Shown here piece after piece: positions 12,554 through 58,696 of a stretch of DNA of 64,000 nt. Numbering within the stretch: the stretch's first letter is position 1; every line of letters begins with the position of its first letter. The notes below the pieces were generated by a model. It saw only the letters and a program-made list of their open reading frames with translations, did no database searches and was not told the origin of the DNA. Source of the stretch: Piscicola geometra (taxonomy: Eukaryota; Annelida; Clitellata; Hirudinida; Piscicolidae). The DNA lies in NCBI GenBank assembly GCA_943735955.1, contig OX030963.1, positions 3,864,158-3,928,157 of the forward strand, in the 5' to 3' direction. The position numbers and the translations under genes are program-made.

Positions 12554-12666
12554 AATAACTGATAAAAGGTTTGAAAAAATGTAGCAAGCAGTCTTTTGTA
12601 TAACATTTTATGGACAGTTGTTTATCATTATTTGTATGTGTGTTGAAAACATATACAAGATTGATG

Positions 12667-13558
<892 letters not shown>

Positions 13559-13930
13559 ATGTGTTTGTGTGTTTATGTGTTTATGTGTTTGTGTGTGTAT
13601 TGTTGAGTGTTTAGATACATATAAAGCACAAAAGGTTCATTAGTTTTGATGTAGGTTGTGTGTAAATAGGATGAGGATTTAGGATGGCCTCAAATTCCCC
13701 GTGGGATGGGATCAGATGCAATGATGGCGTTGAGATTTTATCGTGTGGCTGTGATGATAATGGATAAAAAAAGGTAAAAGTTGATTTGTAGATGTGAAAA
13801 ACAAAAACAAAAAAGCGATCAAAAGAAAGACCAAAAACACATGGATGCCAAAAAAATTACAAGATAGAGAAGCAGCGCCGATACTGGAAAGAGTGTTGCA
13901 AAAAAGTATGTTGTTGATGGAAGGAAGAGA

Positions 13931-31974: not shown

Positions 31975-34236
31975 TTAAGAAGGAAGAACTAGAACTAGTT
32001 TGATAGGCTCTTGCGTTGGACAGCGTGCTGTGGCCTGGTTGGCTGGGGTGAGGCAAGCAGGCACCGTTCGATTGGCCTGGCCACACGTGCGTTGAGGGCT
32101 GCATACTGCTTGGTTGTTATTGAGACTGGTCGGTCCAAAAGAGTTCGTATTCGGGCTTTTATCGTCATGACAGTTCTGCGAGTTCCTCGGAACTCCGTGC
32201 AAGAGAGGCATCATTCCCTCAACGGGTTTGCTGATTCGGTGCTTCAGTCTTTCCAGTTCGTATAGGCAGTCGACGGAGCTGAAGTCGTTGTTGTAGACAG
32301 GATCCAGGCAACAGCCCTGTCTGCAACGAGGCTTGACGCAGGAACAACAGTCGCAACAACATGAACCTTTACAACAACATCGATCTTTACAACAACATTT
32401 GCAACAACAAGAGTCTTTGCAACAACTTTTACAACCACATTTACAAGAGCCTTTACGGCTACATGAATTTTTACGACAAACTTTTTTAGAGCATTTACAG
32501 GAGCATTTACAACATTTGCAACAGCAATCTTTGCCCAAATCTTTACAAAACTCTTTAAACCCGCAATCTTTACAACAACAGTCTTTACAACAACAACCAC
32601 AACAATCTTTACAGCAACAACAATCTTTACAGCAACAACAATCTTTACAGCAACAACAATCTTTACAGCAACAACAATCTTTACAGCAGCAGGAATCTTT
32701 ACAACACGGGAAATTACAGCAACATTTACAACAACAAAGCTCATTGCAACAACAATCCCCACAACAACAATCTTTACAACAACAATCCCCACAACAACAA
32801 TCTTTACAACAACAACAATCTTTACAACAACAATCTTTAGAACAACAATCTTTACAACAACAAGATTCTTTACTAGAATCCGACTCTTTCAAATTTGTCT
32901 TCTCCTTTTTATTTTTATTTTTATTTTTCTTTTTCTTATTCTTCTTCTTCTTCTTTTTCTTGTTCCTCCTTTTCCTACTGCCATCACTGGACCTGGAGGC
33001 ACCACTACCACCACTACTACTACGGGAAGAGCTTGATGAGTGGTCGGAACGGGATGAACCCGAAGAAGAAGATTTTTGCGGAAAGGGCATGCAATAGCCG
33101 GGGTAGCAGCCCGGACAACAACAGCAACAAGTGGGGTAGCAACATTGGTCGGAGCAGCAAAAGAATGGAGAACAAGGATAAGCACACGAAGATTCCATTT
33201 GGTTGCTGCTTTCTTGTTGTAATTGTTGAGATTGTTGAGATTGCTGAGATTGCTGAGATTGTTGAGATTGTTGAGATTGTTGAGATTGCTGTAGTTCTAG
33301 ATAGGACGTTCGAGGTCGTTGTTGAAGTAGTTGTTGCTCTTGGCTGGAGGGTGGTTGGTTCAGTTGTTGTTGGTAAGAGGGGCGTCTATGATGCAGAAGT
33401 GGTTGTTGTTGTTGTTGTTGATGACTTGTTTGTTGCTGGTGTAAGGATGATGATAGTTGATGAAGTGAATGTTTTCGATTTTGGAGCACTTGTTGTGAGG
33501 GTGGTTGTGACTTTTGTTGTGGAAGTGGTTGTGATTCTTGTTGTTGAGGAGGCGGTGATTGTTGTTGTGGGGAAGGATGTTGTTTTAAGACTCTTTTTTG
33601 TTGTTGCAGCGATTTCACGTAAGAGGGTCGTTGTTGTGGCAGCGTTGGTGGTGGTTGTTGTTGTTGGGAGAGTGGTGTTTCATACTCAACAGATGGTGGT
33701 GGTTGTTGTTGTGGTTGTTGTTGCGGTTTTTGCTGTTGCAGTTCCTGCTGAGATGAACCGTCCTCTTTCTTGTGTTTGTGTTTCTTTTTCGAATGTAAAT
33801 GACGTCGTTTGCGATGGTGTTTATGTTTTTTTTTCTCCGTCTTCAATTCTTCTTCATTAGATGGAGCCTTTTCTGACACCGACAGCTGAATCTCTTGAGA
33901 TGCTGGGTTGTTGGGTGTGCTAGAAAGCTGTGGTTCATCCAGCGGGAAACTCTCCAGTTTCTCGAAGCTTTTTTTGGGGGGGTTTTCAACTTCTATAGTT
34001 GGATCGCTGCCCTTTCTGGGGTTGTTTGAATTGTTCACGTCGATTGTTTTCCCATAGTGATCTCTTAGTTTCACGTAAAGATCTCTTATTTTCCCGTGGT
34101 GATGCCTTACTTTCCCGTGGTGGGTGTTTCGGTTGCGTTCTGTGAATTGAGTGGCGGTGCTGGCTAAAGTGTTCAGGGAGGATGCTTCGAATGAAGATGA
34201 GGCATTCACCTCAAGACTTGACTGTTGAAGACGCAT
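31975..34236 (-). CDS. Low-complexity protein: poly-Gln, Lys-rich and Cys-run blocks
   Basis: One open frame of 753 codons from the Met at 34236 to the stop at 31975. Order: Ser/Thr-rich N-terminus with HHGK repeats, a Lys/His-rich patch, about 200 residues rich in Gln/Pro/Ser, a QQSQQSQQS run, a Ser/Arg patch, a Lys/Asn run, then about 200 residues of KDCCCC-type 18-bp repeats, and a non-repetitive C-terminus with spaced Cys. The Cys block recalls keratin-associated, metallothionein-like or egg-case structural proteins; no homology is claimed. The frame may be spliced near its end. The complementary Gln-rich frame at 32333-33097 (+) is a shadow of the Cys codons. The non-repetitive ends use mixed codons, which favours a real gene. 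Confidence 0.65.
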   Translation of the reverse strand: MRLQQSSLEVNASSSFEASSLNTLASTATQFTERNRNTHHGKVRHHHGKIRDLYVKLRDHYGKTIDVNNSNNPRKGSDPTIEVENPPKKSFEKLESFPLDEPQLSSTPNNPASQEIQLSVSEKAPSNEEELKTEKKKHKHHRKRRHLHSKKKHKHKKEDGSSQQELQQQKPQQQPQQQPPPSVEYETPLSQQQQPPPTLPQQRPSYVKSLQQQKRVLKQHPSPQQQSPPPQQQESQPLPQQKSQPPSQQVLQNRKHSLHQLSSSLHQQQTSHQQQQQQPLLHHRRPSYQQQLNQPPSSQEQQLLQQRPRTSYLELQQSQQSQQSQQSQQSQQSQQSQQLQQESSNQMESSCAYPCSPFFCCSDQCCYPTCCCCCPGCYPGYCMPFPQKSSSSGSSRSDHSSSSSRSSSGGSGASRSSDGSRKRRNKKKKKKKNKKKKNKNKNKKEKTNLKESDSSKESCCCKDCCSKDCCCKDCCCCKDCCCGDCCCKDCCCGDCCCNELCCCKCCCNFPCCKDSCCCKDCCCCKDCCCCKDCCCCKDCCCCKDCCGCCCKDCCCKDCGFKEFCKDLGKDCCCKCCKCSCKCSKKVCRKNSCSRKGSCKCGCKSCCKDSCCCKCCCKDRCCCKGSCCCDCCSCVKPRCRQGCCLDPVYNNDFSSVDCLYELERLKHRISKPVEGMMPLLHGVPRNSQNCHDDKSPNTNSFGPTSLNNNQAVCSPQRTCGQANRTVPACLTPANQATARCPTQEPIKLVLVLPS

Positions 34237-34672
34237 TATGAAATTTATAAAATCTTCAAAGTTGGTTTTTTCGATTTAAACTTTTGGAATAGTTTCATGA
34301 GAAGAGTTCATTGTACGTATAAAAAACTGTTTGTTCGCTTTTTAAATAAAATTTGAATAATCTAAAAATATTTGTATCGAAAATAATTTGGTTTTACATT
34401 TTTTACTTTTTATTTGTTGATTTGTTTTTTATAACTTTCAAACTAATTCACGTCAGTTTAAATTTTATAATTACAATCATTTTTTTAATTATATACATAT
34501 ATACAAAAAGTAATTTTAAAGTTTAATATGACTAAAAAATATTAACGTTTTAAACTTTTTAATTCTAATACACCCTATTTGTCACTCGAATCCTTTTTTA
34601 AGAAGTCCGGAAAGTTTGGGATTATGATCATACTAGTTTTTAGTTTTAGTTTGGTATAAACGGCAGTTCAGA
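34237..34672. promoter_or_regulatory. Divergent spacer between the Cys-rich gene and Ig receptor 1
   Basis: A 436 bp AT-rich spacer between opposite starts, probably holding both promoters. It has no counterpart upstream of the inverted Ig paralogue. Inferred from position. Confidence 0.35.
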
Positions 34673-37600
34673 ATGAAGAATAGTTTTTTATTATTTTTTA
34701 TTTTATTATTACAAGATTCAGTACAACGTTAGATTCATTTTCTCTTAGATTAACATTATTGATAGAAAATATTCAATTAAGACTTAATAATTAAGTTATG
34801 GAAATGAATATTTTAACATTTCAGAAGACCAAGATATCTCAGAAACAGTCTTGCTATTAGTGAAAGCTGGAGACCCTGTCATATTTGAATATGATAAGGA
34901 AATAGGCGAATTAGACGAGTGGACAACTGAAAGTATCCACTAAACATTTTAATATTAAATCTTTCAAAATTCAGAAAATTATAATAATTTGATTCTTATA
35001 ATTCATATGATATACCGTAAAACTATTTATTATTCAGGAACAATCTTGAAATCGATGCAAGGCAATGAATGCGCTCCTGGTTATAATTACTCGTGTAAGG
35101 GTACTAAATGCTTCTTCAAGATTGAATATATGTCAAAAGAAACTCCACCTTTTTTTCAATTGATGATAAATAAAGATGGTGATTCAAGAATTAAGAAGTA
35201 TTATCTTATAACTGGCGGTGAGTTGAGTAATTTATAATTTACTTATTTATTTTTCTTAACACTAAAAATCTATTCACAGAACTGAAATGTGACATTAATG
35301 CACCAAAAGCCATGATTGGTGAGACTAACTGTCCCGAAGTTGAACAGAGCAAAATGAGTGGAAAGTGCACACTCACGCATGCGCGCCGCGATGGTTTCAC
35401 GCCATCAGTAAAATGGAGGGTTACAGACCAGAGTGGAGAGGCGGTGAGTGATTCTGGAATGCACAAAGGCAAGATTATAGACGATCGGTCAGACAAAATA
35501 GTATGGGAACTGTATAATAACAACATTCCAGTGAAGAAGAAAAATTCAAAGTTTGAGTGTTATGTGGAAGGAAGCGATCTGAAGTGCTCCGAAACCTTGC
35601 CTGCGTTGAAGATTCTGTGTGAGTGGCACCTTTGATAAATCCCAATTTATTATTTTTGTTATCCATAATTATAAAAATAGATTAATTCATGGCTTTGGCA
35701 TTTCTCTTCAAAACTTGATCCCAAAGTTTCAGTTACACGCGATTATAATCCTAGTTAGTGTTTGGGATAGTACACTGTGGGCCAAAAACACGCTATTGTA
35801 TATTTGCTTATAACTTTGGCAAAGTTAAATCGATGTACAATTTTTTTTGTTTTACTTAGAAATGAATTCCAACAAGATGTTATAACATATATTTTGCCCT
35901 CTTTACTATGCAATATTTTAACCAAGGGTTTAAACAAATGGGAACGCTTGGGAACATTCCCGGGTCCTCTGAATTTGGATCACTGTTTTTTAATTATTTC
36001 ATGTAACAAGATTTTTTCCCTCACGGGCAAGCAAAATACCTGAACCATTACAGACGCCTTGAACACCTCATACGACCTCTTGACCTCCTACTCCCTGCAC
36101 CCAATGACCTCCGACAACAAAAAAACCATCACGTGCCAAGCGCACGTCAGTGAGGGCATCCCTTGCTCATACAAGTGGCTCCACCAAGACGGCACTGTCA
36201 AAACCGAGTTCAACAGCGCCGTTTTGAGAGAGAACCAAATCGAAAAGTTTGGCAGTTATGAGTGTTTGGCTGACTGTGCGCTGAGAGAATCTGACCGTTG
36301 CATTCTGCTGGCTGACAGGTTCCAGTATCACCCATCAAATAAACTCGGTTTGTTTTTCAAGATTTCATCACTGTCTTCAATTCCATCTTTTACAATAGCA
36401 CTTACAAACTTGTATTTTTATGTTTAATATATTTTATTGAATCTTTCAGCTTTTCTGTACGTCATTCCGATCATTTTGTTGATCGTGATGGTTGTGGCGG
36501 TCCTATTGTTCTTGCTATTCAAAAGAAGAACTAGGTATTATTGTTTTTCTCAAATAATTAATCTCAGTATACGTTTTTTATAAAGAAGAAACATTTTACA
36601 GAAGAAAAACACAAAAAAAGAAAGATAAAGAAAGCCAGCTTTTACCTCCTACAAGCACAGTTACAAATTCTGCCCCAACTTCAACTTCAGCCACAACTAC
36701 AAGCCCAGCCACTCCTCTAGTCACGACAGGGCTGACTCAACCAATCAGCACACCCATGCCTCAGTCGAAACCACCTCTGCATAACACACCACGCAGGAGC
36801 TCTTTCAAACGTACCAGTTCCAACAGAAGTCTCATGGAAAAGATCACTGAGGAAGATGCTAATGGAGATATCGTTGGTAGAAGTTGGTCCAACTAATTTA
36901 TTTATTTATTAATATTTGGAAATTGTTTCTAAATTGATGGAAAGTCATTTTTTCCATAAAAAATGAGTGCTCTCGCCAAATTAGATAGTTTCAAATGAGA
37001 GAGCTTGTTTCGCTAATTTATACATTCTGAAGAACATTTCAAACTAACACACCAGGAGTGCCAAAGATCACAATAAACGACTCGAAGGGCAGTGTAATGG
37101 GGGTGGCGGTGATGGCTGAGCGCATCTTTTGCGTCTGCAGCGACAGCAAGAACCTCTTCGTCTACCACAAAGACCCGCCTCACAACCGCATCTTGCCCGA
37201 GGAGGTTTTAGTGCCGGGTTTGAAGAAACCAACCGATCTGGCTGTTTGTGCCAAAAGTTACTCTGTCTTCATTTGCAACTACACCGACGAAAATGCCGTC
37301 TTCAGGTCCGTTATGAGTTTCTATATATCATCATCATCGCCGTTATCATCATCACTATCATCTCCGTTATCATCATTACACTGTTATCATCATTATCATC
37401 TTGTATCATATTATCCGGCGTTTAATTATTTAATTAATTTTAAAGCGCTGCTTATTAAAAAAAATAGAACTTGAAATTAATTGTTGCCCCTCGAAATTTA
37501 AATCACCCCTTATCACAGAGTTTATCCGAACACGGCTTCGGCCGAGAACAAGGTTTGTGTGTGCAAGGTGGATGGCAATCCTGCTTCGATGAGCGTGGTA

Positions 37601-38215
37601 GGAGGTGACGAAGAGACCGCTGTGCTGATCCTGAAACGAAACAAACGTCTCCACGTTGAGTTGTACAGCACTTTATACTGCAGAAACAGATACAACGCCA
37701 TAAGGGAGAGTGTGGTGTGGGAGAAGAAGATGCTCTTTGAGCTGGGAGCAGACGTGAAACTGCCTTTGAAGGCGTGCATCAGTGGCTTGACGTCAGGGGG
37801 AGGCAGAGATTCTCACTTGACTTCCAAGTGCATGTGTTTGCTGTACGGCTCTGGCAGCTATGGCAAAAACAGATTTGAGAAGTACTTTCTGGCACACTAC
37901 GACCTCGAGACCGGCCGTTTGCTGGCGCAGAAGTTCGATTTGAGTTTTGCGGTCTCTTCATCTTTCGTTCCGTCTTCTATCGTGAGCGACACAAATAGAG
38001 GAGGGGTTTGTCTGCTGCAGGAGGGAGTCGATGGTGGTATCTGGCATTTTGACCATGCCTTCAAACCCTTCAAAAAGCTACTCCGTGTTGAATCTCCAGG
38101 AATACGTTACAGTCTCAATGAAGACGCTAGCACTGCTGTCATTGGTTGCAGCGGCAAAGCTAATGCTTCTTTAATATGCAAACAGCTTCTGCCAACGTCG
38201 GATCCTTCTGTCTAA
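34673..38215 (+). CDS. Ig-domain membrane receptor with propeller-like cytoplasmic region (copy 1)
   Basis: Exons 34673-34727, 34825-34932, 35038-35217, 35280-35618, 36054-36347, 36450-36534, 36602-36876, 37056-37305 and 37519-38215 join in phase to 760 residues. The first exon is a hydrophobic signal peptide (MKNSFLLFFILLL). The ectodomain has paired Cys and Trp in Ig-like spacing, clearest in exons 4 and 5 (VKW...FECYV; TITCQA...YKWLHQDG...YECLA), many extra Cys and N-glycosylation sites. Exon 6 is a TM helix with an FKRRTR stop-transfer. Exon 7 is a Thr/Pro-rich linker. Exons 8-9 (about 315 residues) show repeated GVAV..RIFCVCS and PTDLAVC-type strands, as in NHL/WD-like propellers. If intron 7 is retained, translation stops six codons later, giving a short-tailed form. 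Likely a cell-surface recognition or adhesion receptor; the ligand is unknown. Confidence 0.8.
35768..35905. mobile_element. Dispersed repeat inserted in Ig receptor 1 intron 4
   Basis: Begins CACTGTGGGCCAAAAACACG after a TA. About 125 bp match, in reverse orientation, 57124-57273 next to the hAT-like pseudogene. The inverted Ig paralogue matches the intron up to this point but lacks the insert. The right border is unclear. Confidence 0.6.
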
Positions 38216-39992
38216 TTAATAACTAGCGCTACATAAATAATATTTGTTTTTCATCAGTGTTTCTTTTCATGAGATTATGTGTGGATGGCCGCTGCCTATT
38301 TTGTTAGCCATTACATGTATTTGATAATCTGCATTTTTTTATCTATACTAAAAATTTTCAAAGTTTGTTAGCTCAACTGTTTTTTTAATTGCTAAATGGT
38401 TGAGTTTTTTGCCTTAAAAGTTGAATACTAATTCAACAATTTAATGATTCATCATGCTTATTTTTTTCAGCTTTCATGAGAACATGTAATTTTAAAATTA
38501 GAGCTTACTATCTTCAGGGGCGAAAATGAAGCTAATATACATCCAGCTGAGTATTCTAGTATGATGAGTAGCAATATTGGTCACGACAACAAATGCGTTC
38601 CAAATAAAAGATATTTACCTAACCTTCGTTTGTTTATAAAACATTATTGATATTTGTTCATGTTCACCGTTCTGTACCACATGTTTCAAAGCAAACTTTC
38701 ATTTTAAATTCAACACTCAATCAATCTATCAACACTATGAAGGTATTACAGTAAATTATTCTGCTGAATAGATATATTACTTCATCCGTTCAGCCTCACT
38801 TGACATGTCTATCTTTGAGGTTGAAACACCCATTTCTACAATATTGTCACTAGTTTTTATAAGAGTTTTGACGTTTTTAGAATTTTCTTTAAACTACGAA
38901 TCTTGACTGTCCGTGTCTAAAAAAAACAAGTATTTTAGCTTCAATTTTTTTACAATTTCATGTGTTGCTTCTTTTTTAGAATTTTATATTTCAATGTTCG
39001 TTTTTTTACTATGAATCAATTTTAATCGTGTTTTTATTATACTTATTTGGGCCATTAAACGGGATATTTTCTACACTAGAATCTACAGTTTCATTTTCAA
39101 ATATTAACACCAAGTTTCCCATTTGATAAGGCTAAGTTATATAAATAATTAAAATGAATTATTTGGAAAATCGACTAAAAAACGGTTTCTTTTGGAATAC
39201 ATTGTGAAAAGTTTTTAGATACTTGAAGGATAAAAAGAATAATCATTCATAAGCAGGCGATAGGAAAATTACAGTGCGTAGAAGCGCTGTACTCGAAAAG
39301 TATTACATTTTTCATGAGATATGTACTTTTACGTAAAGTTATAGTAATTAGAACTCACGTTGTTTATATATTTTCAGATGTATTATGTTTAATTTGAATC
39401 GTGTTTGTTTAATAGGAATGCCGACCATTCTATAAAAATTAAAAGATATTAAATCATTTAATAAAAAATTGATTCGAATAACTTTATAAATCAATAATTT
39501 CTATAAAAATTATAATCTCATGATTCGAATAACTTTATAAATCAATAATTTCTATGAAAATTATAATCTCATGATTCGAATAACTTTATAAATCAATAAT
39601 TTCTATAAAAATTATAATCTCATAATTCACATATTATAATCTAACAAGTGACCTCTTTATTTTATTCTAAACTTAATGTTGATTTTTAAAACCTTAAAAT
39701 GGCTTATCAAGAATCTTTTAAATGATATTTAAAATTATCATGATTAAATATATAAATTAATATGCTTTTCTAAAAAGCATTGAACCCAAGATAAATTGGT
39801 TTATTAATTAAATATTGTACCCTTGAAATCGAATTAACATTTCTTAGTAATCATCGAAACATAAAGGTTGTAAAATTTACAATGTAAATGTTGTTTCTCC
39901 TTTAATATTAAAAAAAGCCTTAAAAGAAAACTCATTTTAATTTTGGAAAATTGAAAGCATTTTTCAAATCATAAGCAGGTTTGTTCATAGAC
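38216..39992. other. Spacer between Ig receptor 1 and OXSR1
   Basis: 38570-38770 matches 47165-47330 in inverted orientation (shared core ACAAATGCGTTCCAA). 39463-39625 is a tandem repeat of about 57 bp, three copies (core TTCGAATAACTTTATAAATC). The AG just before 39973 may be the acceptor of a 5' UTR exon of the kinase. Otherwise AT-rich without coding signal. Confidence 0.6.
39463..39625. repeat. ~57-bp tandem repeat, 3 copies
   Basis: Direct repeats containing TTCGAATAACTTTATAAATC and TTTCTATAAAAATTATAATC. Confidence 0.85.
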
Positions 39993-45400
<5,408 letters not shown>

Positions 45401-46100
45401 GAGGGGCTTGGGGGGAGGAGGGGGAGGGAGAGTGGGGATGGAAATGAGGGGGAGAGGGGGGTTGGGTGGGGGATGAGGGGGTGAGTGGAGTGGAGTTGGT
45501 TGAGGGGGAGGAATGGGTAAGAAGAGAAGGAGAGGGGTGAAGTGAGTGTAGAGAGGAGAAAGAGTGGGTTGATTGCTTAAGAGGTGGAGAGGAGGCTTCC
45601 GGAAGGAGGTTGTAGGAAGAAGGGATAATGGGTTGAGTGGGTGGTGAGATGGGTGGGAGTGGGTGTAAAGAGGGGTTTTAGGAAGAAGGGAGAATGGGTT
45701 GATTGGGTGATGAGTGAGAGGGTTGAAAAGGGTATTGAGTGATGAGATTGGAGTGGGCTGAATAGAGGGGTAAAGGGCCAAAGAAAAGTGAGAGGAGGGA
45801 TTGGAAAATGGTTTTCAAAGAAGCTTCGATGGGTAAATAGTATGTGGAAAGAGTGGGTGTCTGCTGAATGGTGGATGGGGGGGTGAGTGCTGGGGAAAGA
45901 GGCAACAATCACACGGGAAGGCGGTAATATCCGAGGGCTTGCATCCCCGCGCAAGGTCACATCTGGATCTGCCCATGTCTGCCGGCCTCTTCTTCCTGAG
46001 ACTGCTCCATTATTTAAGAAATGCGATTCGAGCGGTAAATGCTGTGATGAGCTCGCATTGAGGCTTTCTTCGTGTAAATCGAGAATTATTTAATTCACAA
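45401..46100. other. OXSR1 3' flank with an unassigned GC-richer stretch
   Basis: 45415-45900 is a G-rich GGAGTGGGTTGA-type repeat. 45900-46090 is richer in GC and open on the plus strand (68 codons from 45887) with several Cys, but has no recognisable domain and frames on both strands compete. It could be a spliced 3' UTR or a small unknown exon. Confidence 0.35.
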
Positions 46101-47992
46101 TTGTAATTCTGGCATTTATATAAAAAGAACGATTAAGAATGTACATTTTTCTCTAATCTTCAAAGTTTGTAAAAGCTTTTTCGGAAATCATTATTCTGGT
46201 TGGGTATCGCTTCTGAGCACTGCCTTTGAGCCGCTATAAAACGCCAGACCGCTTTCGAAAAACGCCCTCAAATCACAAGTTTCCGCCAATTTTAATCCCC
46301 CAAACTCCCTTTTATTATCTCTTTTCTCCTGATTTCTACCCACTCTGTTTCATCCTTTTCCTTCTCCCCATCTACCTCAAAATTCCCCCCTTCCCTTTAA
46401 TCGACCCCTGTTCAAATACACCGAATAGTTGCGTTTCCAATCAACTTCTATCGATTATCAAATGATTAATTCATTTCAGCGTTTAATATTTGATTTGATT
46501 TTTTATATTTGATTTATTATTTCGTATTTAATATGTGTAATAGGTTATATTTATATAAAGGTTTTTTAAATGAATTGTCCATTAATCCGTCACATGGTTT
46601 TTGAAAATAATTTACGCTTCTTCCTTAACCTATTATTCATGCATTTCTACTTTTCTCATTAGCCGTTATACTAGTTTTTATTTACAATTATTTTTCAAAT
46701 ATATTTTTCTTATTTAAAAATAATTGTTAATTTCTTTTTTTATTATTTATTTTGTAAAAAAAATTCAGATTATTATACATTTTAAATATTTCTCTCCATT
46801 TTTAAAACATTTTTCTAGTAAACCCCAACCCTTAGTTTTTTATTAAATGTTTTAGAAATTAAACCTCGAAATATGATTTATATTTCAACATTTAAACAAA
46901 TTAAAAGTTAATTTTCTTTTTCTTTCAATTGTTTTAACTTCTCAAAATTACTCTGATTGTAATTCTTTTAGTGTTTCAATATAATCAATACTAACATGAT
47001 ATTATTATTATTTTCATTACTTTATCAATTATATTCTTAAATACAGAAGTTGTCTTTAATATTCACTTTTGAAATAGTATTAGGGTTATTACTAGAATTA
47101 TTGACTAATTAGTTGGACATTTCAAATGAAGCTGTATGGATGAAAATAGTCTAAAAATCAATTTGGCAGAATAATTTACCTTCATAATGTTGAAATTAAA
47201 ATGAAAGTTTGATTTGAAGCATGTGGTCAACAGAGCGGTCAATATAAACAAATCAAATAAATGTTTTATAAAATAAACGAAGGTTACTTAAATATCTTGT
47301 AGTTGGAACGCATTTGTTGAGACCAATATTCATAATTGAATTTGCCTAAAGAGCGCTATAGTAATTTATTTATTTGATTGATTGATAATCGCAATAACTA
47401 GTTTAAATTCTCAATTATTCTTTCTAAAAGCAAAAAATGAAAGATAATGGAGAAAAATATCGGAATTGGAATTAAAATTAAATTATAAAAGAATGTAATT
47501 ATTTAATTAGAATACTATCATAATTATTTCATTAAAATACTATTATAATTATTTAATTAAAATACTATTATAATTATTTAATTAAAATACTATTATAATT
47601 ATTTAATTAAAATACTATTATAATTATTTGATTAAAATACTATTATAATTATTTGATTAAAATACTATTATAAATATTTCATTCAATCAATCAATCACAG
47701 GCATTTATATAGCGCTTTTTATCTAATTCAAAAGCGCTTTTCAAATTTATTTGTTAAATAAAACGGTTTTTAGACCACTACCAATATATTTATATATATC
47801 AATTAAAATATAAAAAAACAAACAATCAACCTCAATAGTCCAACCTCACCCACACCAACATGACAATCACCGCCAAAAAATCACTGTCTCCACCATAAAA
47901 AATTCAATCATCACCACAGTACCGACACTCGTACCACAGCACAATCATCACCACATCATCCTCAAAACCACAAAACACAATCATCATTCTTC
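46101..47992. other. AT-rich spacer with SINE stubs and inverted-repeat arm
   Basis: 47165-47330 is the counterpart of 38570-38770 in inverted orientation. SINE 3' stubs lie at 47350-47388 and 47688-47742. 47500-47690 is a 24-bp repeat (AATACTATTATAATTATTTA core). No gene seen. Confidence 0.6.
47500..47690. repeat. 24-bp AT repeat, same monomer also at 48290-48445
   Basis: AAAATACTATTATAATTATT units, about seven copies here and six in the second block, separated by a coding-like exon and a SINE stub. Confidence 0.9.
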
Positions 47993-48136
47993 TCAATTTT
48001 TGGTGCTGAGGCTGCGATAGAGGGTGAAGGGGAAGTCCTTGCCAGCACTGTAACTGCTTCTGCTATCGAAGGTTTTCTCCTTTATGTCGCAGTTCACTTG
48101 ATTCCCTGCGACCATGTTGGTCTGCTGCGGCCATTC
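47993..48136 (-). CDS. Orphan terminal exon candidate (47 codons)
   Basis: After an AG at 48138-48137 the frame is open to a TGA at 47993, with balanced codon use in AT-rich surroundings. It includes QVNCDIKEKTFDS and FTLYRSLS. It lies downstream of, and on the same strand as, the inverted Ig receptor, so it may be an alternative last exon of that gene or a relic of another. Not recognised. Confidence 0.35.
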   Translation of the reverse strand, partial: EWPQQTNMVAGNQVNCDIKEKTFDSRSSYSAGKDFPFTLYRSLSTKN

Positions 48137-48597
48137 CTTGATAGATTCAAAACAACCAACATTCGCACACAAAAAATTCTAATTAATTAAATTAAATTTT
48201 TATGTAGACTTAATATTCTAACATTTTAATTTACTATACCCAAAACCGTTTATTCTACAAATTTATTTATAACCAAAAATCTGTTTTTCATTAAAATACT
48301 ATTATAATTATTTAATTTAAATACTATTATAATTATTTAAGTTAAATACTATTATAATTATTCACTTAAAATACTATTATAATTATTCAATTAAAATACT
48401 ATTATAATTATTCAATTAAAATACTATTATAATTATTTCATTAAAATATAAATAAAAATTAAACTTCTGAAAATTCATTTTCCGAATTTCTATTATTTGT
48501 TCAATTTATTAAATATTTTTTAATCTTTTAATTTAATGTGAATTCGCAAATTCTAGTTTTCCATCCGTTGTATAAATAGTTTTACAATTTAAATACA

Positions 48598-50012
48598 TTC
48601 TGGAACTCCGCGCTTGGAGACCCCGCCTTCATACAAACATATACCCATACATTTATAACTAGTTTGATTGGCCCAGCGTTAATATATGCATGACTTTGAT
48701 TGGTCACTATTTGTGAACAAACATGACTAAAACATATATGCAGCTTTAAGATTAACATTTTATAGCTAACGGCACTCTTTATTTACTAATATCAGCTGAT
48801 GTATGAAAGACATGAATATAATGATAAATAAAGGCGGCCATATTTTTTTTTTCCTTTCGCCAACTATTTGATACGAGATATATCGTAAAATGAACAATAA
48901 TTATGGCTTATTTACTTCTAGAATATTATTATAACCTAAATGAAAAAGATTGAAACAATCGAAGTCGAAAAAATTCCATCGAAATGATCTATTGCTATAA
49001 TTTGCAGCATATATCCTTTGCAGCTTTAAAAAATTAAAGTATTTTCTTCTGCCTATCAGCAGTCCGAATATTTCTTCTTGGATAGTCCTGACATGTTTTA
49101 TTTTAAATCTTCTTTTTATCAATGTCAGCTACCATGATACAAAATAGGTGGTTAAATTAAATTGATAATGGGTTCGAAAAAATTATAAAACAGTGTCATA
49201 ATGTTGAAAAAAAGACCTATTTCACTGTTAGTGGGCAAGTCACTTCAAAACCCAACAGGTCATAGGCTGCTCCATTTTCTTCACTGATCTCTTGCTTCTG
49301 CTGGTGCACATGGGATGTGCTTGGTTTTCTTTAGCTCAAATCCCTTCTAGCCTTTTACATTTTGTTGTTGTTGAATGAGTGAAAATGAATAAGTCTTATT
49401 CAATAAGGAAAGAACATATTCTCTCAGTGGGATGGTTTTCGAGAATAAAAACAATTGATGCACTTGTAGCGTGCCGCATTTGTGTACGCTATGTACACAC
49501 GGCCACTCCTTAGCACCCCTTTGTCTCTCGAACCATATATATAAGGAAGCTTCTCGTTAATAAACTCTCTCTTGTCCCCATATTTCAATCGCATGCGCTT
49601 CACAATATCTTTACGTGAAATACTTAATAATTGGTCAAATAGGATATTTTAAATTTATAAGATATTTTTCACCATATTACTAGTAAATTTTTTTTATAAA
49701 TTTACAAATATAATGTGAAATTGTTCAATAAAAAAGTTGTGGCCTAATATTGGTCAGAGCACTAAAAGTCATAGGCAATATTTAAAGTATTTTATTTTGC
49801 CTATTAGCATTACCGTTTTTTTACCATACAGCTATTTAAACATTGGAAACTTGTCTTTATTAATTGTTATGGATGTGTGCTTGGGTGTATGTGCATTTTA
49901 TGTTTGGTGGACCAATCAAATGCATGCATACTAGTCAAAGCTGGGCCAATCAAACTATATGAGTATTTGTTTATATGAAGGTGGGGGTCTCCAAGCGCGG
50001 AGATCCGTGAAA
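48598..50012. mobile_element. Probable DNA transposon with ~110-bp inverted ends
   Basis: 48598-48715 and 49895-50012 are imperfect inverted repeats sharing CTCCGCGCTTGGAGACCC, TTCATA.AAACA.ATA and TTTGATTGGCCCAGC. The inner 1.2 kb has only short frames (73 codons at 48901-49122, minus), so it looks non-autonomous. Family unknown. Confidence 0.65.
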
Positions 50013-50035
50013 ACTTGTAGAACGTATTTCTGAGA

Positions 50036-50427
50036 TACCCCAGCATACGTTAAATAGTAGAATTATTCCTAATAAAAATTTTTTTAAATGTTGTTTACAA
50101 TTTATTTAAAATATTTAACATATTTTTTCATCTTTAAAATGTATAAAAACTATTTATAAAATGTATAATTTTTTGAATATTTTAGTGCCTTTTCATCTAT
50201 GCAATTGACTGGAAAGATTGACTGAGAGACCGAGACCGCAATGTTCGGTTACCACTTTCGAGAAATAAAACTCAATCCAACAATTAAAATATAAACCATA
50301 AGTTTTTTTAACGAGTTGTAAGTATAGTAAATATATTTTATATTATACGATTAGAATATCTTATATCACCCTTTATGATACAGAAATAAACAAAGTCACG
50401 TGATACTTTTCTTTCTATGCTGGGGTA
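50036..50427. mobile_element. Small inverted-repeat element (MITE-like), 392 bp
   Basis: Ends TACCCCAGCATA and TATGCTGGGGTA are perfect 12-bp inverted repeats that include TA at both ends, as expected for TA target duplication. No coding capacity. It ends 32 bp after the stop of the inverted Ig gene. Confidence 0.6.
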
Positions 50428-50458
50428 TTTGAAGAATGACGGTCTCTTGCATTGGTGA

Positions 50459-53400
50459 TTAATACAGAGTACCTATACTACGTATTGTATTTAGGATATC
50501 TATGCAACCAGCAATATCTCCTACTTGGCGTACTTTTTCGTAATACCCATCTTCCACGGATACCGATTTGTACGATGGGTTGGACGTCTGAGAGATGCTA
50601 TAATTCCTTGTCATTTTTCTGATACAACAGAATATGACAGCAGCAACGACGATACAAATCGGAATGGCGCACAGAAAATCTGAAAGATTCAATAAAATAT
50701 ACGAAACATAAAAACTTAAAATACAATTTTACAATTTCTTTTGGGAAAAAAATGAATTGAGGATAGTGATGAAATCTTGAAAAACAAACTTTGAGTTTCT
50801 GATGTTTTATATTGGAATCCCATTGTAGGTGATGGTTGATACTGGAACCTGTCAGCCAGCAGAATGCAACGGTCAGATTCTCTCAGCGCACATTCAGCCA
50901 AACACTCATAACTGCCAAACTTTTCGATTTGGTTCTCTCTCAAAACGGCGCTGTTGAACTCGGTTTTGACAGTGCCGTCTTGGTGGAGCCACTTGTATGA
51001 GCAAGGGATGCCCTCACTGACGTGCGCTTGGCACGTGATGGTTTTTTTGTTGTCGGAGGTCATCGGGTGCAGGAAGTAGGAAGTCAAGAGGTCGTATGAG
51101 GTGTTCAAGGCGTCTGTAAGGTTCAGGTATTTTGCTTGCCCGTGAGGAAAACCTCTTTAAAAAAATAACAAAAACATCAACAAGTCTTAGAACATTATAT
51201 ACTTTTTTGTTGTTTTTCGAAGATGTTGATAAGAAAATATTCATAATATAAAAGTTTTAGAAAATTTGAAGACTTTCTATAAATATTTGAAACTGCTTAC
51301 CGAATTTTCGAAACATCAGTGATAAGAAAGCAGCAATAATTCTGACAACGACGTAAAATATACTATTCGAAATACTAACTAGGATTATTATCACGTATGG
51401 CCGAAACTTTGAGATCGAGTTTTAAAGAAGAATTTTCCAAGTCATGAATTAATCTATTTTTATAATTATGGATAAAAAAAATTATAAATTGGGATTTATC
51501 AAAGGTGCCACTTACACAGCATCTTCAACGCAGGCAAGGTTTCGGAGCACTTAAGATCGCTTCCTTCCACATAACACTCAAACTTTGCATTTTTCTTCTT
51601 CACTGGAATGTTGTTATTATACAGTTCCCATACTATTTTGTCTGACCGATCGTCTATAATCTTGCCTTTGCGCATTCCAGAATCACTCACCGCCTCTCCA
51701 CTCTGGTCTGTAACCCTCCATTTTACTGATGGCGTGAAACCATCGCGGCGCGCATGCGTGAGTGTGCACTTTCCACTGATTTTGCTCTGTTCAACTTCGG
51801 GACAGTTAGTCTCGCCAATCATGGCTTTTGGTGCATTAACGTCACATTTCAGTTCTGTGAATGGATTTTTAGTGTTAAGAAAAATAAATAATTGAATTTT
51901 AAATTACTTAACTCACCGCCAGTTATAAGATAATACTTTTTAATTCTTGAATCACCATCTTTATTTATCATCAATTGAAAAATGAGTGGAGTTTCTTTAG
52001 ACATGTATTCAATCTTGAAGAAGCATTTAGTACCCTTACATGAGTAATCATAACCAGGAGCGCATTCATCGCCTTGAAACGATTTCAAGATTGTTCCTGA
52101 ATAACCAATAGTTTTACGGTATATCATATGAATTACAATAATCAAATTATTATAATTTCCTGAATTTTGAAAGATTTAATATTAAAATGTTTAGTGGATA
52201 CTTTCAGTTGTCCACTGGTCTAATTCGCCTATTTCCTTTTCATACTCAAATATGACAGGGTCTCCATATTTCACAAGCAAAACTTCATCTTTTTCTGAAA
52301 TGTTAAAATATTTATTTTCGTAACTTGTTAAAAAAATGATTTTTTTAGTTAAAATATTCATTTTCATAACTTTTTTTATATATATATTTGATCAATTATG
52401 TTAATCTAAAATAAAATTAATCTAACGTTGTATTGAATTTCTTATTAGAAAAATTAAACTATAGATTACTTTGAGCTTTTTTTATTTTAAACAGAATGTA
52501 AGCACATCTCTCAATTTCAACTAATTTCAAGTTTTATATAGTTTTATAGTTTTATATTTTCTAAAACCAAAGGAATATGATGTAATAATATATGTTACAG
52601 TCAAAACGCGTAACTAGTCATTTCGCGTAAAGCCTGTAAAAACCAGTCACTTCGCGCGAAGCCTGTAAAAATGACTCACCATATTTCACAGTTTGACTGA
52701 AATGAAACATTCAGATCTTCAGTTATTTATTTGGCTCTTTTCATTCATACATTTCGAATATTTTAAAATAAAAACTTTCAATTATTAAAACTACAATGTT
52801 TCAGATTTTTAATTATAGCCTATAATTTATTGGTTTCCAAAATTGATAAGAATAATTAACAAGAAGTTTGGAAAAATTTTGAAGATGGTAGACATTTCTT
52901 TCAACAATTTTCCAAAAACAATTTCAAAAAGAATTGCAAATTAAAATATAAAAATAATATGTGGGTCCTATATGGGTCCTACTTAATTAAATAAAATATA
53001 AATTTAAAATTTAAATAAATTTATTAAATTTAAAATTTAAATAAATTTATTAAGTTTAAAATATAAATGAAATTTAAAATATAAATAAAATTTAAAATAT
53101 AAACGAAATTTAAAATATAAATAAAATTTAAAATATAAATAAAATTTAAAATATAAATGAAATTTAAAATATAAATGAAATTTAAAATATAAATGAAATT
53201 TAAAATATAAATGAAATTTAAAATATAAATGAATTTTAAAATATAAATGAAATTTAAAATATAAATGAAATTTAAAATATAAATGAAATTTAAAATATAA
53301 ATGAAATGTGAAATATAAATAAAATTTAAAATATGAATGAAATTTAAAATATAAATGAAATGTAAGATATAAATGAAATTTAAAATATAAATGAAATTTA

Positions 53401-54056
53401 AAATATAAATGAAATTTAAAATATAAATGAAATTTAAAATATAAATGAAATTTAAAATATAAATGAAATTTAAAATATAAATGAAATTTAAAATATAAAT
53501 GAAATTTAAAATATAAATGAAATTTAAAATATAAATGAAATTTAAAATATAAATGAAATTTAAAATATAAATGAAATTTAAATTATAAATGAAATTTAAA
53601 ATATAAATGAAATTTAAAATATAAATGAAATTTAAAATATAAATGAAATTTAAATTATAAATGAAATTTAAAATATAAATGAAATTTTAAAAATAAATGA
53701 AATTTAAAATTTAAATGAAATTTAAAATTTAAATGAAATGTAAAATTTAAATGAAATTTAAAATTTAAATGAAATTTAAAATTTAAATGAAATTTAAAAT
53801 TTAAATGAAATTTAAAATTTAAATGAAATTTAAAATTTAAATGAAATTTAAAATTTAAATGAAATTTAAAATTTAAATGAAATTTAAAATATAAATGAAA
53901 TTTAAAATATAAACATAAAAAATAAAGTCCGTTTTTAACTATTTTGAGGAGTGATTGATTGATGAAGAATAGAAGCTCTAAATATTGGAGCTTACCTGTC
54001 GTGTGGCAGAGAGCAACACATGTGAGGGTGCCGATGAGAAGTTTAAGGCAGAACAT
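50459..54056 (-). CDS. Ig-domain membrane receptor with short tyrosine tail (inverted copy 2)
   Basis: Exons 54056-53996, 52294-52202, 52096-51917, 51854-51516, 51113-50790 and 50679-50459 join in phase to 405 residues. The signal peptide (MFCLKLLIGTLTCVALC) is unrelated to copy 1. Exons 3 and 4 have the same lengths as in copy 1 (180 and 339 nt) and differ in only a handful of residues (for example Met/Ile, His/Arg and Ser/Ala in exon 4). Exon 5 is near-identical but ends differently (QPSPTMGFQYK). The TM exon starts like copy 1 (FLxxIPI) and then diverges to a short helix. The tail has NPSY (Tyr369, PTB-type) and YYEKV (Tyr379, YxxV, SH2-type); neither fits the strict ITIM. There is no propeller region. 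Likely a signalling partner or competitor of copy 1 for the same ligand (inference). Confidence 0.8.
52430..52500 (-). pseudogene. Relic of ancestral first exon in Ig copy 2
   Basis: On the minus strand, GATTCAGTACAACGTTAGATT of copy 1 (exon 1 end and donor) corresponds to AATTCAATACAACGTTAGATT here, but the ATG and leader codons are gone. The leader is supplied instead by an unrelated exon 1.5 kb upstream. Confidence 0.55.
52985..53920. repeat. 18-bp AT array (AAATTTAAAATATAAATG)n, ~935 bp
   Basis: About fifty copies, with ATATAA and TTTAAA sub-variants clustered in blocks (53700-53890 mostly the TTTAAA form). Lies within the first intron of Ig copy 2, between the new leader exon and the ancestral exon relic. 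Confidence 0.96.
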
Positions 54057-57273: not shown

Positions 57274-58331
57274 TTATTTAGATAACATAAAATAACCTCT
57301 CTGCCCTCTCCCCACTCCTCGTTTACTCAAATTTCTAAAAAGACCCCTTCGAATGTCTGACCGAGTAGCAAATTCTTCTGCTAGTCTTTTTAAATCCAGA
57401 CTCTCAAGTATATCCTGATGTGTATGACAAACGGCCAGTGAATTCAAGCGAGGCTGTGTCATAGGTGCACGCAACTATGTCTTAAGACGCCGCAAAGCAC
57501 TAAAAGATCTTTCTGCAGTACATGACGTTATTGGACACACAAGCATCAACCTGATCAATCTTTCAACCAGGAAACAGATGTCTGGTTTCCGTGATCATAG
57601 CTTGCATTATTTTTTTCGTTTGTGCTAAAGTTCTGTATTCATTTTGGTCTTTAAAAAAAGTTAACTGTGAACAAAGAACTGATCATCTGATCATAGATTT
57701 CATAATGTTAAAGCAGAAAAGACACTGTAGATACTTTGGTAAGCCATCTTGTAGGACAAAGAAGTTTTATACTATACTTTTTATTCAGTGGCTCATCAGG
57801 AAAGTCAATTATAAGAGACACTAAAGCATCACTAAACTGCTTCTTGATCTTCCCTGAACGATTGTAAAAAGCACCTAACTCTTGGACAAACTGAAGTGAA
57901 TTGCTCACAAAGGGATTTGCGGCAGCTGTGTGCTGGGCAACAAGATTTGCACAGTGTGCAGAACAATGGAAAAACAATGCAAGCGGATGCTCACTGCTGA
58001 TAATAGCCTGACAACCATTATATCGGCTGCTCATGCTAGCAGCGCCGTCATAAGTCTGAGCTCTTAGTTTTTTTATAGATAGCCTAATTCTGATCAGAAT
58101 ATCTTTTACTACAGCAGATAATGTTTTTCCGATCGTGTCTGGCGGGCTGAATAAACCAATAAACTGTTCATTTACATTCAGAGCTTCATCAAAAAAACGA
58201 ATGCCTATCGATTCCTGCTCTAACCCATTGCAGTTTTGTGTGCCGTCACCACAACACCAAACTGGCTTGATTCGGCATAAACAGTGCACACTGTTTCTAA
58301 CGATAGAATAAGCTAAAAGCATCAGCATTTC
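57274..58331 (-). pseudogene. hAT-superfamily transposase (ZMYM1/DUF4371-like), broken
   Basis: 58331-57708 matches the catalytic core of this family: DEALNVNEQFIGLF, LRAQTYDGAASMSS, FHCSAHCANLV and LCPTRW. 57600-57274 carries the C-terminal hAT dimerisation region (CTAERSFSALRRLKT, then RLNSLAVCHTHQDIL) with an in-frame TAG between them at about 57480. The middle (about 57600-57708) is missing or out of frame, and the N-terminal catalytic start reads GDGTQN where the family usually has DE..D. The element is therefore dead. No intact terminal repeats were identified. Confidence 0.8.
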
Positions 58332-58696
58332 TTTTTGACAGTTATGCGAAATGAAACTTTTAGTTTGATTAAACCAAAACTTTAGTAAATGTTCGAAGTC
58401 TTTTGAAATTCATTAACTTTGATTCATCTAAAAAATTGAAAGGGTCAATATTGAAGTGGAGCTCAGAACCCCCTATGAATATTGCCCATGCAAAATAAGT
58501 AGCACAATATAAATGATTTTAAAAAAAAGTAAATCTATCTGCTTGCAAAAAATGTACCGATATTTTTTTTAAAGCATTCTGAATGTCTGCTTGCAAAAAT
58601 TGAAAAACCAGAAATTTAATTTATATATATATATTTTATTAATTTAAATCCATAAATATAAAAAAAAGAGTAGGTGGATGAGTATTTGAGTTTTTT

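Follow-up and report, generated by a model that had tools for sequence, protein, structure and literature searches.

Similar ectodomains on diverging transmembrane segments and tails: a putative young family of single-pass receptor genes in the leech Piscicola geometra

Introduction

Do two inverted genes on chromosome 9 of the leech Piscicola geometra, which encode almost the same ectodomain on different tails, form a paired-receptor locus? The window, the whole stretch of DNA that was analyzed, comprises 64,000 nucleotides (nt) at chromosome positions 3864158-3928157 (contig OX030963.1 of assembly GCA_943735955.1), and genome-wide searches covered the 171,024,195-base assembly (66 contigs). 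A preliminary description of the window had presented the two genes, here termed copy A and copy B, as a pair of immunoglobulin (Ig) receptors that flank a kinase gene. We report their gene structures, the larger cluster to which they belong, the loss of the long tail and a peak of divergence in the transmembrane (TM) exon. Our best reading of the locus is a recently arisen tandem family of genes for single-pass receptors, several of them intact as modelled, with a role that is predicted from sequence.

Results

Copy A (window positions 34673-38215, plus strand; chromosome positions 3898830-3902372) has nine exons and a predicted product of 760 residues, and copy B (54056-50459, minus strand; 3918213-3914616) has six exons and 405 residues. 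Both frames are open, with GT-AG borders at all modelled introns. The coordinates and opposite orientation first proposed for the two genes hold in these models, as do the equal lengths of exons 3 and 4 (180 and 339 nt) and the alignable introns (homology extends over 34696-35772 and 36015-36471 in copy A coordinates). Two pairs of inverted arms, far above chance, lie over the ectodomain exons: 34860-35705 with 51429-52274 (846 nt, 95% identity), and 36048-36351 with 50816-51119 (304 nt, 96% identity). Exon 4 differs between A and B at 7/343 aligned sites, and exon 5 at 9/296.

In copy A, a proximal leader exon (MKNSFLLFFILLLQDSVQ, 34673-34727) is followed by exons 2 (34825-34932) and 3 (35038-35217), which together encode the first ectodomain module (34825-35217) and are also found in copies B, C, E and F. 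Exon 4 (35280-35618, 339 nt) encodes the second module and exon 5 (36054-36347) the third; exon 6 (36450-36534) is the TM exon. Exon 7 (36602-36876) encodes a low-complexity Thr/Ser/Pro linker, with a similar exon start in a copy on chromosome 1, and exons 8 (37056-37305) and 9 (37519-38215) encode a C-terminal tail domain of 314 residues (37056-38215). Copy B begins with a distal leader exon (MFCLKLLIGTLTCVALCHTT, 53996-54056), and its intron 1 holds a ∼0.9-kb array of 18-bp repeats (53000-53900, repeat scan). Exons 2 (52202-52294) and 3 (51917-52096), spanning 51917-52294, and exon 4 (51516-51854, 339 nt) match those of copy A in alignments, and exon 5 (50790-51113) is 30 nt longer than its counterpart. 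The last exon (50459-50679) encodes the TM core and the short tail for which NPxY and YxxV motifs had been claimed; the motif scan finds NPSY, YKSV and YEKV there.

The copy B protein yielded 31 matches in the genome at an expectation value (E) ≤1: 25 on chromosome 9 at 3.899-4.001 Mb, five on chromosome 1 near 14.01 Mb, and a weak one on chromosome 2 (E 0.066). The two genes are thus not a pair: they belong to a group of six or more linked copies that spans 102 kb of chromosome 9, five with exons 2-5 and one partial. The search for further copies that the preliminary description had proposed added four linked ones, all modelled at chromosome 9 positions on the minus strand: copy C (leader at 3959879, exons 3950949-3949015), copy D (exons 5-6 only, 3971749-3971105), copy E (leader at 3988686, exons 3982374-3980410) and copy F (exons 2 and 3-6, with a 4.6-kb intron 4, 4000544-3994196). 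Copy A lies on the plus strand and copies B-F all lie on the minus strand. In A, B, C, E and F the frame stays open between exon 2 and the stop codon, and the GT-AG sites are intact. The unlinked chromosome 1 copy is broken: stops interrupt it, its exon 4 is split and its exon 9 is partly inverted.

Tandem repeats are prone to misassembly, and the cluster might be an assembly artefact or a haplotype duplication. We find this scarcely credible: the copies differ by 2-33% according to region and have distinct flanks and leaders, and the published assembly, provided it is the same, is described in the available part of its report as 76-fold HiFi with a quality value of 51.3 (PMC11134150). Copy D raises another alternative, a modular locus with exons shared between copies by long-range cis-splicing, which might, for example, join exons 2-4 of E to the orphan exons 5-6 of D. 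Copy D carries exon 5, the TM exon and a tail, but none of exons 1-4 turned up in the stretch searched; E is on the same strand, ∼9 kb upstream of D. A, B, C, E and F, however, each have an exon 5 and a TM exon of their own, and we regard such sharing as very improbable.

Copies A and B had been said to differ in their leader exon, and they do, but the difference is a swap. Copies B, C and E share the distal leader (MFCLKLL or MFWLKLL), and ∼1.3 kb around it, including the 5′ flank, is common to B and E. The leader of copy A stands directly upstream of exon 2. In the same position B, E and F still have a readable version of its frame, which lacks the ATG in B and E and retains it in F. Therefore, leaders, themselves putative, were swapped among the copies.

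For the label of Ig receptors, the matches stayed below threshold. Pfam Ig_3 was the best match to the ectodomain (E 0.0035), in two of five members and below its curated cut-off; the third module is the Ig_3-like one. An ectodomain profile compared with PDB gave three matches (E 0.59-1.3), the best of them an Ig protein, and copy B alone matched one antibody chain (E 0.37). Structure models of exon 4 from A and B showed five strands at a predicted local distance difference test (pLDDT) score of 51, too poor for a fold search. The ectodomain probably consists of three Ig-like modules, a fold that these searches did not confirm. The propeller-like nature ascribed to the long tail gained no support: the best Pfam match had E 0.25, the tail alone had no PDB match at E ≤1, a two-sequence tail profile gave one irrelevant PDB match (E 1.2), and the model of exon 9 alone (pLDDT 35) was too poor for a fold search. 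The tail may resemble NHL-like repeats, a likeness that no profile or PDB match confirmed, and the literature search gave no match for a receptor joining Ig domains to a cytoplasmic NHL repeat.

When the genome was searched with the copy A tail (E ≤1), 12 matches were obtained: three to copy A itself, three to the chromosome 1 copy (70-71% identity), two to short stubs of exon 8 in the vicinity of C and D (E 0.0028 and 0.021), and four apparently of low complexity. The 90-nt stubs differ from copy A at 4/90 sites in C and 2/90 in D; in both, the match breaks off at an identical exon 8 position, after which the two sequences run on alike. The broken chromosome 1 copy has the exon 7-8-9 layout of copy A, and the stubs retained by C and D are cut identically, so the ancestor probably had the long tail and B-F lost it. 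The ratio of nonsynonymous to synonymous substitution rates (dN/dS) over exons 8-9, copy A vs. the chromosome 1 pieces, is 0.32-0.55, so the long-tail domain was under constraint.

In copies B-F the segment that forms intron 6 of copy A is an open reading frame with a tyrosine near the membrane (NYSI in B, YYSL in C, YNSM in D, YYSM in E and YQTI in F), the read-through in C-F being putative. Threonine makes up 40, 21 and 49% of the C, E and F tails, respectively, in Thr-rich repeats. The copy B tail runs through A's intron 6 and aligns, by alignment and by eye, with an eroded exon 7 (GDIVG/GDIAG). Hence the claim that A and B have different TM and cytoplasmic parts stands for the TM core and the tail, although the two TM exons are homologous, with a similar first ∼20 nt, and part of the B tail has its counterpart in A.

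The divergence between copies was compared by region. Differences amount to 3.0-6.8% in the longest flank matches (six comparisons), 1.7-5.3% in exon 4 (10 pairs) and 3.0-6.4% in exon 5 (15 pairs). For intron 5 they are 3.6-13.7% over ten pairs, and a second alignment puts the maximum at 17.6%. The TM exon, with gaps set aside, differs by 14-33% (15 pairs). In 30-column windows the TM core, the family's divergence peak, had mean differences of 0.37-0.45, compared with 0.01-0.13 for exon 5 and no more than 0.18 for intron 5. Against the chromosome 1 copy the TM exon differs by 27-29%, as large as within the cluster, whereas exon 4 differs by 11-13% compared with 2-5% within it. The TM core exceeded intron 5 (p < 0.05, uncorrected) in seven of ten pairs (A-C, A-D, C-D, C-E, D-E, E-F and A-F). 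The clean, ungapped pair C-D differs at 22/83 sites in the TM exon and 4/103 in intron 5, next to 4/90 in the exon 8 stub, and it is the sole clearly replacement-biased pair (19 nonsynonymous differences at 60 sites, two synonymous at 18). The TM exon of copy E (chromosome 9, 3980756-3980640) is ∼30 nt longer and seems to join an A-like core to a C-like end, a possible recombinant.

Relaxed constraint alone is insufficient for a TM core above intron 5 and the flanks, because it cannot exceed the neutral level. Two readings of the peak remain: (i) the TM and juxtamembrane segment would have diversified after duplication, which fits C-D; or (ii) old TM differences would have been kept while the rest was copied over, which fits the pooled proportions of nonsynonymous (pN) and synonymous (pS) differences better, or else the short exon is misaligned. 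The pooled pN/pS values for the ectodomain are 0.076/0.254 (exon 2), 0.060/0.167 (exon 3), 0.032/0.041 (exon 4) and 0.038/0.086 (exon 5).

The likeness of the ectodomains is at about the level that recent duplication alone would give, because the longest noncoding flank matches differ by only 3-7%; by itself it does not indicate a preserved shared ligand. Gene conversion was considered as its cause. Segment trees conflict (A and F differ at 0/62 sites in intron 3 but at 19/141 in intron 4), and the longest identical run is significant (permutation p < 0.05) in eight of ten pairs. Five of these eight runs lie in exon 2, where mainly copy A differs, leaving A-E, A-F and B-F. With flanks at 3-7% recent duplication is enough, and conversion was set aside as weakly supported.

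The tails were scanned for immunoreceptor tyrosine-based inhibitory (ITIM), switch (ITSM) and activation (ITAM) motifs with the customary definitions ([SIVL]xYxx[IVL] for ITIM, TxYxx[VI] for ITSM). Canonical ITIM, ITSM or ITAM motifs were found in 0/6 tails, and no charged TM residue is present in A-D; charged residues stand at the helix ends in E (D and R) and F (K). A loose hemITAM pattern in copy A occurred in 289/2000 shuffles, and EKYFRI in copy F in 9/2000 (one of many tests, uncorrected). Thus, neither the opposite signalling tails once envisaged nor classical paired-receptor signalling is supported by the sequence. Linked duplicates carrying nearly identical ectodomains on different TM segments and tails are nevertheless a trait of paired receptors of the CD300/KIR/SIRP type, and this design extends over six copies, with the TM core above the intron in most pairs tested. 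The paired-receptor locus first suggested is backed in part, by its architecture and divergence pattern, with no such backing from signalling motifs; a paired-receptor role is plausible.

A SPAK/OSR1-type kinase gene does lie between A and B, as had been described (plus strand, approximately 39975-45400 from open frames; PDB 5d9h, E 2.6e-149, with the kinase domain joined by hand). It is of the ordinary type, and on the strength of this match it was ruled out as part of the receptor system, its position being judged incidental. A 766-codon open frame on the minus strand (31975-34275) ends just upstream of copy A; its product, with Cys-rich CCCKDCC-type and Gln-rich repeats, is possibly structural or metal-binding. 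A 233-codon frame (57708-58409, minus strand) has motifs that suggest a partial transposase of the hAT type or part of a zinc-finger MYM-like protein. Simple repeats in the window include ∼0.9 kb of (AC)n at 12600-13600 and ∼0.2 kb of (AT)n at 43100-43300. On chromosome 9, a 1033-codon frame adjoining copy F (4006537-4009635, plus strand) looks by eye like a non-long-terminal-repeat retrotransposon endonuclease/reverse transcriptase, and ∼10-17 kb past copy F there are receptor tyrosine kinase-like fragments (4010665-4017233, minus strand) with an Ig_3 match at 4016993-4017226. The genome also carries 43 antistasin matches, as expected in a leech.

Discussion

We propose, with confidence evenly balanced for and against, a young receptor family in which a common binding face is combined with membrane and signalling parts that diverge, with a shared or overlapping ligand and with copy A signalling by its tail. 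The ancestral receptor would have combined an ectodomain of three modules, probably Ig-like, with a TM helix and a long cytoplasmic tail made of a linker and the 314-residue domain. Tandem duplication within ∼102 kb of chromosome 9 would have been followed by retention of the long tail in copy A, and by short or Thr-rich tails with a membrane-proximal tyrosine in B-F, in which exons 8-9 would have been lost or cut. Copies B, C and E would have acquired the second leader with its upstream region. The ectodomains stayed alike, while in most of the pairs tested the TM core and juxtamembrane part diverged more than the flanks and the adjacent intron. On this proposal the copies would reach the cell surface, bind the same or overlapping ligands and give different outputs: copy A may signal through its tail domain, and the short-tailed copies may compete for ligand, internalize via YxxPhi or NPxY motifs, or use their different helices to associate with other partners.

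Several observations weigh against this proposal. Second flank pieces differ by 3.8-15.3% (five comparisons) and some introns reach 15-18%. The TM test covered 10 of 15 pairs, leaving five outside it, and gave no significant excess in A-E (p 0.31), B-D (p 0.14) or A-B (12/50 in TM vs. 14/102 in intron 5, p 0.17). The pooled TM values are pN 0.351 and pS 0.431; with pS not below pN, positive selection on the TM segment did not emerge from dN/dS and the pattern is not one of simple replacement-driven selection, and the alignment of this short, gapped exon is uncertain. Degenerate double YxxPhi motifs are at chance level in A (YSTL…YNAI, 315/2000 shuffles) and B (double YxxV, 242/2000), and YxxPhi motifs are common. 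No relatives appeared in protein databases with the tail alone (E ≤0.01), copy B (E ≤0.1) or a five-ectodomain profile (E ≤0.1), a weak absence, as annelid coverage had no positive control. Copy D is a fragment lacking exons 1-4, and the short tails may simply be decay.

Decay leads to an alternative that we rather doubt but take seriously: ordinary tandem duplication in which copy A is the working gene and the others are recent truncated copies heading for loss, their tails unconstrained. With the longest flank matches so little diverged, copies this young could be expected to seem undamaged; the fragmentary D, the broken chromosome 1 copy and the relic exon 8 stubs point the same way, as do the repetitive C, E and F tails. 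Five copies, however, retain all modelled splice sites and frames, and the TM core stands well above intron 5 and the flanks in most pairs tested yet stays hydrophobic, where lost constraint gives at most the neutral rate.

A bolder form of the proposed receptor family, which we consider unlikely, would make it the first annelid family of paired-receptor design without ITIM/ITAM logic. A conserved face would sit on a rapidly diversifying TM/juxtamembrane cassette that chooses the membrane partner, with copy A as master copy that signals by its long intracellular domain, short-tailed copies as tuned competitors or endocytic scavengers, and leader switching giving different expression.

Copy B matched none of the NCBIfam families, and none of the literature matches listed for leech Ig superfamily (IgSF) receptors or innate immunity, paired receptors and invertebrate allorecognition described a comparable leech family. 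CD300A/CD300C, as portrayed in the available part of PMC12447643, which also gives the ITIM definition, resemble the cluster in being linked IgSF genes whose ectodomains are very similar and whose TM and cytoplasmic parts differ, with divergence concentrated in the tail half. The same text reports four ITIMs in CD300A and a charged TM residue in CD300C, features that the leech copies lack as described above, and ectodomains kept alike by gene conversion, where recent duplication is enough in the leech. No shared sequence family was found between CD300 and the leech cluster.

Ectodomain polymorphism is a hallmark of Hydractinia Alr, the reverse of the pattern among the leech paralogues. A locus for allorecognition or other polymorphic self/non-self recognition, with a role like that of Alr or of the fester co-receptors (FcoR) of Botryllus schlosseri, seems quite improbable: the ectodomains, the expected site of allelic variation, are the least varied part among paralogues, and the tails hold no canonical ITIM or ITAM. 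In its favour, the FcoR layout, in the excerpts available from PMC12065747, is likewise an invertebrate cluster of linked, IgSF-like type I TM receptors that contain Ig domains and vary in their tails, and Alr is given there as clustered invertebrate IgSF-like receptors. By the same excerpts, canonical ITIMs, hemITAMs or a core tyrosine motif are present in FcoRs, which pair with fester genes, and ITAM/ITIM motifs are reported for Alr candidates. No matches to Alr or Botryllus allorecognition proteins appeared in the general PDB and protein-database searches, whose databases had no positive control for them.

For the TM exon, the nearest likenesses are exon 5 of the red/green opsins, a short segment of high divergence in far more similar flanks (PMC3924837), and ruminant CEACAM32 with its co-opted TM exon, a local divergence peak between duplicates (PMC7042247). 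In the accessible parts of both reports the peaks are interpreted as selection for difference between duplicates. The leech case differs from both in that gene conversion is at most faintly indicated and it is the TM/juxtamembrane coding segment that forms the peak.

If the short-tailed copies are merely decaying duplicates, this is an ordinary young gene cluster. If the genes are expressed as modelled, the ectodomain-constant, tail-variable design of vertebrate immune receptors would have arisen in an annelid that uses other signalling parts, and the leech would offer a compact locus, with six copies of one age and one of them long-tailed, for asking whether TM helices undergo diversifying selection.

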